From the NCBI RefSeq assembly GCF_900100335.1, contig NZ_FNFE01000001.1, positions 372,001 to 436,000 on the forward strand: a DNA stretch of 64,000 nucleotides, written 5' to 3'. The position numbers were made by a program, and so were the translations under genes. The DNA comes from Natronorubrum texcoconense. Its GTDB lineage: Archaea > Halobacteriota > Halobacteria > Halobacteriales > Natrialbaceae. Of the stretch, positions 35,036-37,347 are shown in pieces; positions within the stretch are counted from its first letter, which is position 1; every line of letters begins with the position of its first letter. The notes beneath the pieces were generated by a model. The model saw nothing but the letters and a program-made list of their open reading frames with translations. It had not been told where the DNA came from and did no database searches.

Positions 35036-36211
35036 TTACCGGATGACGTCGACGCCGTTCTGTTTGTCGAGTTCTTCGCGACCGCCGTCGCTGTGAGCGT
35101 TGAACCCGTTGTCGACGTTCTTGCTCGCGTCGAAGTCGGTGTTTTTGACGCCTTCAATGCTCTGTCGCGATTTGTCGGCCTGCTTCTGCGTCGTCGGGCC
35201 GAGCACCTGGGCGCTCTGAACGCCGGTCATGATCGCCATGACGCGGACTTTGCCCTTGTAGTTCTCCTGGATCCGGGCGCCCCAGATCACGTTCGCCGAG
35301 GCCTCGAGGCGCTCGGTGATGTTGTCTGCGATTCCTTCGGCCTCTTTGAGGGTGAGGTCGGGACCGCCGGTGATGTGGACGAGGCCACCCGACGCGCCGC
35401 GGTAGTCGACGTCCAGCAGCGGGTGGTTCATCGCGTCCTTGACGACCTCGTCGGTCTTGTTCTTGTCCTGGGTCTCACCGACCAGCATGACGGCGACGCC
35501 ACCCTGGTTCATGATGGTGGACATGTCCGCGTAGTCCAGGTTGATCAACGAGGGTTGGGTGATCGTCTCCGAGATTCCCTTGACGGTCTCGGCGATGATC
35601 TGGTCCATCACCGAGAACGCCTTGCCGATCGGGAGGTTCGGGACGTAATCGAGCAGCCGGTTGTTGTCGAGGACGATGATCGAGTCGGCCTGGTCTCGTA
35701 GCTTCTCGAGACCCTCTTCGGCCTTGACCGTGCGGGCGCGCTCGACGTTGAACGGCGTCGAGACCATCCCGACGACGATCGCACCCTGCTCTTTGGCGAT
35801 TTCGGAGACGACGGGGGCGGCACCGGTACCGGTCCCGCCACCCATGCCTGCGGTCACGAACACGAGGTCTGCATCCCCGAGGACCTCTTTGACCGTGCCC
35901 TGGGCCATCTCGGTCGCGCGTTCGCCCATCGAGGGATCGCCGCCGGCGCCGAGCCCGTTCGTGAGCGACTTGCCGACGAGGATCTTCGTGTCGGCCTCGA
36001 TCATCTTGAGGTGCTGTTTGTCCGTGTTGATCGCGACGGTGTCAGCACCGTCGACGCCGATGTTGTACAGCCGGTTGATGGTGTTGTTACCGGCACCGCC
36101 ACAGCCGACGATGACGATCCGCGGATCGCCGAACTCGTCGTCGTCCATGTCTTCCATCTCCCGGGACTCCTGTTCGGCGTTTTCGAGGGCGTCTTGTACG
36201 ATATCCTGCAT
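35036..36211 (-). CDS. ftsZ2: Cell-division tubulin homologue FtsZ2
   Basis: A 391-residue GTPase with [11 protein letters not shown], the tubulin signature [12 protein letters not shown], and the T7 loop NLDYADM that completes the partner's active site. The N-terminus [15 protein letters not shown] and the genomic link to CdrS are those of FtsZ2, which in haloarchaea acts in ring constriction with FtsZ1. The C-terminal tail after about residue 345 is polar and unstructured. The start ATG 36211 is two bases past the cdrS stop, with AAGGTG inside the end of cdrS as ribosome site, so the pair is coupled. It is probably regulated from the GTAAGAC-rich region. Confidence 0.95.
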
Positions 36212-36213
36212 CG

Positions 36214-36393
36214 TTACACCTTAGCCCAGTTGCGTTTGCCGGTCTGTTCGCTCGGTGCGTCCTGTTGTTCGTTGATCATCTCTCGGACAGCCGACCGGAT
36301 CGCCTCGCTCCGGTTCGGGAACTCGCCCGAGTCGACCAGCTGCTCTACCTCATCGATCTGCTGTTTCGGAATTCGCAGTGTCACACGCTCCAT
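36214..36393 (-). CDS. cdrS: Ribbon-helix-helix regulator CdrS
   Basis: A 59-residue protein, easily missed for its size. It starts [20 protein letters not shown], then [20 protein letters not shown], and is a complete ribbon-helix-helix DNA-binding domain (strand TLRIP, helices 11-21 and 29-42), followed by a short polar tail. In Halobacterium and Haloferax, CdrS is encoded directly before ftsZ2 and controls it and other division genes. Here the stop TAA 36216-36214 is two bases from the ftsZ2 ATG. The start is ATG 36393. The GTAAGAC inverted repeat lies about 105-125 bases upstream, so autoregulation or control by CdrL is likely. Confidence 0.93.
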
Positions 36394-36411
36394 TGTTGTA
36401 TTCCCTTTGGG

Positions 36412-36583
36412 GTAAGACGGCGCGCGCCCCTGTCAGACGCGGCGTGTCTTACACGGATTCGCCCGACATCGGGCGTTTTTCGGCGTTCGCCGACCGTTGT
36501 AAGACGACCGTCTTACGCGAATAAGTGAAATACTGGCATAGACAATAAAGCTTTCGTCGGACACGACTTTCTGTGTCTTACAC
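36412..36583 (-). promoter_or_regulatory. Five GTAAGAC boxes in the cdrL-cdrS gap (predicted CdrS/CdrL operators)
   Basis: GTAAGAC or its complement occurs at 36412-36418, 36446-36452, 36499-36505, 36510-36516 and 36575-36581. The two central boxes form the 18-bp inverted repeat GTAAGACG-AC-CGTCTTAC (36499-36516). The boxes at 36444-36454 and 36573-36583 are the same 11-mer, GTGTCTTACAC, itself a near-palindrome. A TATA candidate for cdrS, CTTATTCG on the minus strand (36518-36525), abuts the central repeat, so a bound protein would sit between the TATA box and the start of transcription. Ribbon-helix-helix dimers typically bind such short symmetric sites. Confidence 0.7.
36460..36480 (+). 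terminator. Hairpin followed by T5 in the cdrS leader region
   Basis: CGCCCGA-CA-TCGGGCG then TTTTT on the plus strand looks like an intrinsic terminator. No plus-strand gene precedes it. On the minus strand it would be a hairpin in the cdrS 5' leader. It could stop antisense transcripts or be a leader structure. Confidence 0.4.
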
Positions 36584-36589
36584 CGGTCC

Positions 36590-37252
36590 TTAAGTATGAC
36601 TGTCACGGCCGAGAACGTCAGCGGCCGGCGTCCGACGTCCACAGCCCGGGCAGAAGGCCCAGTCCGACCGAATTTCGTCACCGCAGTCGCAGAACAGTCG
36701 TCGCGAGGTTTTCTCGCCGCAGTTCGGACAGTAAACGTGGTCGTCGTCGACGTGTTCCCCACACTGGTCACACTGACTGGCTGGCTCGTCCTCGAGCGAC
36801 TCCGGCTCGACGGCGTCCTCACGGGCGGGCCGTTCGGCTCCGTCGCTGTGACTGGCGTGGCCGTCTCCGCGTGCGTGCGTATCAGTCTGAACCCGCTGGT
36901 CGTCTCGAGCCGACCGCTCCGGAACCCGCCGGTCGTCCTCGAGTGAGACACTGATCGTGACGTCACCCGTACTTCGTCCGCGCGTACGGAACTCCTGCTG
37001 TCGACTCTCGTCGAGTCCGTACTCGTGGAGCCGATCGGCGAGCAGTTCGTCGACACGCGTTCGGATCAGGTCGTCGATGGCGCCGGTCGACTCCGGCTCG
37101 CTAATCGACGCGCGTTCCGCCCCTCGGTCGGCCCCCGTGGGGCCGTCGAGGTACGCTCGAAGCGCCTCACGCATCGCTTCGCTCTTCGATACGTCGAGGC
37201 GCTCGAGTTGCTCGACGAGGTCATCGTCGGCGCGGAACGTGATCTTGCTCAT
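36590..37252 (-). CDS. cdrL: Ribbon-helix-helix and zinc-ribbon regulator CdrL
   Basis: A 220-residue protein. The N-terminal ribbon-helix-helix domain (MSKITFRADDDLVEQLERLD, then SKSEAMREALRAYL) is followed by a charged, probably disordered middle. The C-terminus carries zinc-ribbon halves CDQCG, CPNCG, FCDCG and CPGCG (residues about 160-208). Architecture and position upstream of cdrS-ftsZ2 match the long cell-division regulator of haloarchaea. The start is ATG 37252, 129 bases from tRNA-Tyr. It probably binds the GTAAGAC sites just after its own stop codon and so controls cdrS-ftsZ2. Zinc could be structural or sensory. Confidence 0.88.
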   Translation of the reverse strand: MSKITFRADDDLVEQLERLDVSKSEAMREALRAYLDGPTGADRGAERASISEPESTGAIDDLIRTRVDELLADRLHEYGLDESRQQEFRTRGRSTGDVTISVSLEDDRRVPERSARDDQRVQTDTHARGDGHASHSDGAERPAREDAVEPESLEDEPASQCDQCGEHVDDDHVYCPNCGEKTSRRLFCDCGDEIRSDWAFCPGCGRRTPAADVLGRDSHT

Positions 37253-37347
37253 GTCCGAGATACACCTGTTATTGTGACTCTAGCTATATCAATCATTCTA
37301 CCGTATGCCACACGTCACACGCCTCCCGTCACCGAGAATAACAACCC

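Follow-up and report, generated by a model that had tools for sequence, protein, structure and literature searches.

Conserved GTAAGAC boxes between cdrL and cdrS-ftsZ2 in Halobacteria, a likely CdrL operator, and a predicted structured mRNA leader

Genes, boxes and promoter at the locus

The genes cdrL, cdrS and ftsZ2 are found one after the other on the reverse strand of the window (the whole 64-kb stretch of DNA that was analysed), and the features described here are collected in Table 1. Domain matches bore out the names of all three genes and confirmed that both genes flanking the cdrL-cdrS gap encode ribbon-helix-helix (RHH) proteins, as had been claimed in the original prediction. The two genes are adjacent and co-conserved, and the beta-strand SKITFRA of CdrL hardly varied among 125 loci. 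A sequence search retrieved no close solved structure for the CdrL RHH domain, and CdrL was not found in viral contigs. The same three genes form the CdrSL network described in Halobacterium, where CdrL binds upstream of cdrS-ftsZ2 (Darnell et al., 2020; PMC7439475). The main text of that paper gives neither a binding motif nor an analysis of promoter conservation nor an RNA structure.

Table 1. Coordinates of genes, promoter elements, boxes and predicted RNA features (positions in the window unless a genome and contig are given).
Feature	Position	Strand	Description
ftsZ2	35036..36211	-	PF00091, PF12327, TIGR00065
cdrS	36214..36393	-	59 aa RHH protein; NCBIfam NF058555 CdrS, 119.7 bits (cutoff 100)
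cdrL	36590..37252	-	N-terminal RHH PF01402, 25.7 bits (cutoff 20.5)
cdrL, C-terminus	36590..37252	-	double zinc ribbon PF12773, 33.1 bits (cutoff 27.3)
BRE/TATA of cdrS-ftsZ2	36543..36556	-	CGAAAG-CTTTATTG; conserved across haloarchaea
Box 1	36575..36581	-	GTAAGAC; upstream of TATA, outside the transcript from the predicted start
Boxes 2 and 3	36499..36516	-	18-bp inverted repeat GTAAGACGGTCGTCTTAC; located at the predicted start of transcription
Box 4	36446..36452	-	GTAAGAC; within the transcribed leader
Box 5	36412..36418	-	GTCTTAC; about 20-30 nt 5' of the cdrS start codon
Possible sixth box	36594..36600	-	GTCATAC; overlaps the end of cdrL; 84 bp (8 turns) from the inverted repeat
Structured 5' leader of cdrS-ftsZ2 mRNA	36394..36518	-	predicted; P1 = box 2:box 5, P2 = box 3:box 4
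Hairpins between leader stems	e.g. 36460-36475	-	predicted
Weak CdrS-type site in the cdrL promoter	37303..37320	-	GTGTGACGTGTGGCATAC; matrix score 10.8 vs 99th percentile 11.3
CdrS-type site of ftsZ1 in the own genome	G000:C3:54936-54953		about 50-70 bp upstream of ftsZ1 (loci L152-L180)

The cdrL-cdrS gap measures 196 bp and holds five exact copies of the heptad GTAAGAC/GTCTTAC. An exact match search found them at 36412 (+), 36446 (-), 36499 (+), 36510 (-) and 36575 (-), all at the predicted positions, and only two further copies were present in the whole window. On the reverse strand, from cdrL to cdrS, the order is box 1, boxes 2 and 3, box 4 and box 5. The middle pair is, as predicted, a perfect inverted repeat (IR) with 8-bp arms, GTAAGACG-AC-CGTCTTAC (36499-36516), and the 11-mer that two other boxes had been said to share, GTGTCTTACAC, does occur twice. 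None of 20,000 dinucleotide shuffles of the gap gave even three copies of the heptad, and when any 7-mer was allowed at least five copies were reached in 6 of 5,000 gap shuffles. The spacing of the possible sixth box to the IR, 84-85 bp, recurs in several other genera.

The original prediction erred on the promoter, since the TATA candidate that it had placed at 36518-36525, abutting the IR, is unconserved. The conserved TATA lies at 36543-36550, and 115 of 122 loci have a distance of 32-33 bp from the TATA to the IR downstream of it. The transcription start was predicted from the usual archaeal spacing between TATA and start; because of this spacing and of the position of the TATA, the IR would begin at about +3 of the transcript. 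As the IR overlies the predicted start site, its position suggests repression of cdrS-ftsZ2.

Conservation of the boxes in the class Halobacteria

Alignment of the gap from other haloarchaeal loci and a genome scan for the 18-bp motif had been proposed as checks on the prediction. The GTAAGAC boxes were conserved in such loci, and the same box order recurred in 80 named haloarchaeal cdrS loci. The scan returned one copy of the 18-bp IR in the 4.64-Mb genome of the window, at the cdrL-cdrS gap; a genome-wide regulon of this motif was ruled out, since the IR is single-copy. The search was extended to 391 genomes drawn from the class Halobacteria, and GTAAGAC-N3-6-GTCTTAC was present in 374 of them. 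All of the 30 IRs that were fetched lay between cdrL and cdrS. A second IR copy was detected in only 2 of the 374 genomes, compared with matches to the reversed pattern, used as control, in 8. In these two genomes, G239 and G363 (L148 and L151), the second IR is away from cdrS, at a frequency no higher than that of the control.

The 17 genomes lacking the N3-6 form comprised three with no cdrS locus in the assembly and 14 with a variant in place. The variants were an N2 spacing (six genomes of family f9), GTAAGAC-N5-GTCATAC (three genomes), the direct heptads GTATGAC-N3-GTAAGAC-N3-GTATGAC (three Haloquadratum-like genomes) and one-mismatch forms (two genomes).

The operator array was observed in the cdrL-cdrS gap, with an intact cdrL adjoining, in all of the 125 loci examined, and the heptad density reached 20.2 per kb in the gap compared with 0.21 elsewhere in the same loci (about 100-fold). 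Box 1 was present in 102 of these loci in either orientation (60 forward, 42 reverse). Box 4 kept its place and orientation in 92 loci (92/0, never reversed) and was absent or decayed in about 30, and box 5 was found in 121 of the 125, also never reversed (120/0). All 7 bp of the boxes are invariant, unlike the outer half-sites of the CdrS-type sites described below. The boxes are thus confirmed, and each haloarchaeon checked that has the locus retains them, essentially as a single set per genome. Chance clustering was ruled out by the shuffles together with this class-wide conservation.

Of 312 genomes from the phylum's other classes, 5 had the IR, a number below the reversed-pattern control and equal to background. 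The CdrL RHH domain had no match in 36 non-Halobacteria genomes, where zinc-ribbon matches only were obtained, and CdrL has been published as restricted to Halobacteria (PMC7439475). The boxes and CdrL have the same class-level distribution.

Candidate regulators of the cdrS-ftsZ2 promoter

The cdrS-ftsZ2 promoter is the only reproducible site of CdrL in ChIP-seq of Halobacterium, with a peak called in 200-bp bins and no motif given; the cdrL deletion strain of the same study carried second-site mutations (PMC7439475). CdrL is restricted to the class, is encoded next to the boxes and binds only this promoter in Halobacterium, and for these reasons it is likely that the boxes are a dedicated CdrL operator on the cdrS-ftsZ2 promoter; the contact between CdrL and the boxes is what we infer from these data. 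The original prediction had assigned the array to CdrL and/or CdrS. An operator array for an RHH regulator, conserved in 125 loci, is supported, with CdrL favoured by ChIP-seq and distribution. The CdrS half of the claim was not sustained, as the 18 sites of CdrS in Haloferax ChIP-seq do not include the cdrS promoter and two of its targets carry a different heptad, GTCnGAC.

The distances from box 1 to the IR were 42-45, 51-53, 62-65, 73-76 or 84-85 bp, depending on the lineage, with no loci at 46-50, 54-61, 66-72 or 77-83 bp and with outliers at 25 and 114 bp. This is the pattern of a site kept on one face of the helix, and it fits dimers bound there. In Haloquadratum the boxes stay 10 bp apart even though their orientation is reversed; therefore, the symmetry of the repeat is not essential. 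A comparable arrangement is known for omega (ParB of pSM19035), of which one RHH dimer binds each asymmetric 7-bp heptad in either orientation, weakly on single heptads and strongly on paired ones, over its own promoters (PMC9499535). As with omega, several 7-bp heptads in either orientation lie over the promoter of an RHH gene, whereas omega heptads are contiguous and the pair described here is 9-12 bp apart centre to centre, with the other boxes 26-85 bp off.

In the proposed mechanism, every 7-bp box would hold one RHH dimer. A pair of dimers spaced 11 bp apart on the IR would seed binding at the start of transcription, with further dimers added by boxes 1, 4 and 5, that of box 1 on the same helix face. 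Occupancy of the operator would repress cdrS-ftsZ2 and in this way set the level of FtsZ2. Three observations count against the CdrL operator: the box is asymmetric (GTA-A-GAC) and need not be preferred by a symmetric homodimer, box 4 is lost or decayed in the loci mentioned above, and the strict orientation of the transcribed boxes would also suit an RNA role. Self-regulation of cdrL via GTAAGAC was rejected, as just 4 of the 125 regions upstream of cdrL held heptads.

CdrL resembles aCcr1, the RHH repressor of cdvA in Saccharolobus (PMC12796447, PMC7617429), in that both are RHH proteins tied to a division gene in archaea. The type of division controlled by aCcr1 is the ESCRT type, not the FtsZ type. 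The RHH domain of CdrL matched NCBIfam aCcr1_fam (NF053762, E 1.8e-6) at 27.7 bits, below the cutoff of 60 for membership of that family, which hints at a tie between the regulators of FtsZ-type and ESCRT-type archaeal division.

The sites of CdrS were analyzed for comparison. ChIP-seq of CdrS in Haloferax yielded 18 sites, including ftsZ1 and dacZ, with cdrS and cdrL not listed, and sites were reported at -50 and -47 (PMC8406309). In 29 genomes, GTCnGAC-N4-GTCnGAC (up to 2 mismatches) was found just before the BRE/TATA upstream of ftsZ1, and about 19 of the 29 had a similar pair, again with up to 2 mismatches, at a constant position upstream of dacZ. These positions agree with the published ones, and GTCnGAC-N4-GTCnGAC is probably the CdrS motif. 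In Haloferax volcanii, the CdrS sites likewise represent a symmetric bipartite motif placed upstream of promoters and bound by an RHH protein from the same operon (Liao et al., 2021; PMC8406309). The putative CdrS pairs lie upstream of the TATA, whereas the GTAAGAC/GTCTTAC operator of cdrS lies at the start site. Both share the two-heptad 11-bp design and the inner half-sites GAC-N4-GTC, and they differ in the outer half-sites, GTC/GAC in CdrS-type sites and GTA/TAC in the cdrS IR. The cdrS IR does not match GTCnGAC-N4-GTCnGAC, with a matrix score of about 12 compared with 16-25 for the ftsZ1 sites.

When a matrix derived from the ftsZ1 sites was used, 59 of 124 regions upstream of cdrL exceeded the 99th percentile of the control windows, and most of these sites lay between -59 and -78 relative to the start codon. 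Halorubrum, other Haloferacaceae, f3 and f9 had strong sites in the cdrL promoter; most Natrialbaceae, to which the window belongs, had a weak one or none. Regulation of cdrL by CdrS is a prediction. Through GTCnGAC-N4-GTCnGAC, CdrS would act on ftsZ1 and dacZ and, in a good number of lineages, on cdrL as well, and its arm to cdrL would close a CdrS-CdrL feedback loop. A search of the own genome for CdrS-type pairs gave nine matches, four of them with the identical 17-mer GTCAGACGTAGTCTGAC. The copies at L185, L186 and L188 sit in one repeated sequence, which may be the end of an insertion element, and the flanks of L182 differ. This list is a poor CdrS regulon list because four of the nine are identical and three lie in the repeat. 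Additionally, a perfect pair at G000:C10:129823-129840 (L190) lies about 190 bp before a gene that, by eye, encodes an HtpX-like membrane protease.

The leaders of 13 cdrS-ftsZ loci belonging to other classes within the phylum hold GTCWGAC-type heptads and no GTAAGAC. Tandem heptads of this type lie 30-120 bp upstream of cdrS (L221-L233), up to about nine of them in L224. Their spacings are 11, 22, 33, 44 and 55 bp (16, 17, 14, 7 and 9 pairs, respectively) and almost none else, and the CdrS of these loci has the same RxTxR strand. Resting on these 13 loci, the comparison suggests that CdrS may repress its own operon in methanogen lineages and that Halobacteria may have passed this role to CdrL through a change of operator.

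These arrays in methanogen-lineage cdrS promoters, the inner half-sites common to both kinds of site and the similarity of the CdrS beta-strand RVTLR to KITFR of CdrL would also be expected if CdrS regulated itself via the boxes in haloarchaea. Such autoregulation is nevertheless very unlikely, given that its own promoter is not among the 18 Haloferax sites (PMC8406309) and that the outer half-sites of the cdrS IR are invariantly GTA/TAC. A CdrS-CdrL heterodimer, in which CdrS reads the GAC half of a hybrid heptad and CdrL its GTA half, would explain why each box combines one CdrS-type and one altered half-site, and would suit two adjacent and co-conserved genes. We know of no contact between the two proteins. 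CdrS has no ChIP peak at the cdrS promoter (PMC8406309) and omega homodimers bind asymmetric heptads (PMC9499535), which makes the heterodimer highly improbable. A CdrL motif was absent from the literature searched, as it would be if another, unnamed transcription factor conserved in Halobacteria bound the boxes; such a factor would need to share both the class restriction of CdrL and its single genomic target, and we give it hardly any credence.

The transcribed leader and a second level of regulation

A transcript beginning at the predicted start includes boxes 2-5, four of the five, in the alternating orientations forward, reverse, forward and reverse. This alternation allows two pairing schemes, 2:5 together with 3:4 and 2:3 together with 4:5. 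The leader RNA of the window folded with z = -5.3, a value expected from complementary boxes alone, and for this reason the pieces between boxes were folded separately. The stretch from box 3 to box 4 had a mean z of -2.2 over 25 genera, one locus per genus (19 below -1.5), whereas the controls gave +0.1 for sequence upstream of cdrL and -0.2 for coding sequence (p about 1e-9). In Haloferacaceae, 10 pairs showed two-sided change, a count reached in none of 500 shuffles, with 4-8 in slid structures; relatedness can lead such a count to exceed the shuffle control, and the slid control agrees. In family f3, covariation was found in 26 cells, against 9.4. The box stems are invariant, and covariation covers the hairpins and stem extensions only.

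Where box 3 is changed, box 4 was lost in 8 of 8 loci (about two events). In f3 (L100-L117) box 4 decays to GTAAAC, yet an added stem maintains and extends its pairing with box 3. Boxes 4 and 5 never flip, in contrast to the untranscribed box 1. No Rfam match was obtained in the gap, only a tRNA nearby. By its folding and covariation, the transcribed leader is predicted to have a conserved, covarying RNA structure with lineage-specific hairpins, outside Rfam. Ribosome occupancy of cdrS-ftsZ2 in Halobacterium does not track its mRNA (PMC8303175). The leader RNA would most likely be a second regulatory layer atop the CdrL operator, and the ribosome data are consistent with an effect of its structure on expression.

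The transcribed boxes could instead be mainly an RNA element, in which the leader forms a junction of 2:5 and 3:4 with hairpins and controls translation or decay, possibly by switching to the alternative pairing (2:3, 4:5), with DNA binding secondary. The z scores of the leader and hairpins, the covariation in two families, the fixed orientation of the transcribed boxes only, the joint changes of boxes 3 and 4 and the uncoupled ribosome occupancy all agree with this role. It is unlikely to be the main one, considering that box 1 lies upstream of the TATA and is phased to the IR, that the box stems never vary, that the three direct heptads of Haloquadratum cannot form the 2:3 hairpin and that CdrL binds the region in vivo (PMC7439475). 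A pure RNA hairpin as the explanation of the IR is weakened by the Haloquadratum direct repeats, the 2-nt centre in f9 and box 1.

Beyond the CdrL operator itself, the transcribed boxes would also be stems of the leader RNA, and the sequence would probably be read at both the DNA and the RNA level. A fuller account, in which the heptads are a CdrL operator and switchable RNA stems, CdrS and CdrL cross-regulate each other via sister sites distinguished by their outer half-sites, and an ancestral 11-bp array for self-repression by CdrS, which persists in methanogen lineages, was rewired to CdrL at the origin of Halobacteria, is put forward only tentatively, as a possibility that we doubt somewhat more than we believe.

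It is unusual for an entire class to retain a regulatory site in about one copy per genome. The boxes would provide a base-level target for CdrL and a probable rule separating recognition by CdrL (GTAAGAC) from recognition by CdrS (GTCnGAC), and the arrays of methanogen lineages make the cdrS promoter a clean candidate for operator rewiring. The leader RNA could explain the uncoupling of cdrS-ftsZ2 message and translation, and all of these, together with the predicted CdrS-CdrL feedback loop, concern the control of division tubulin levels in archaea.
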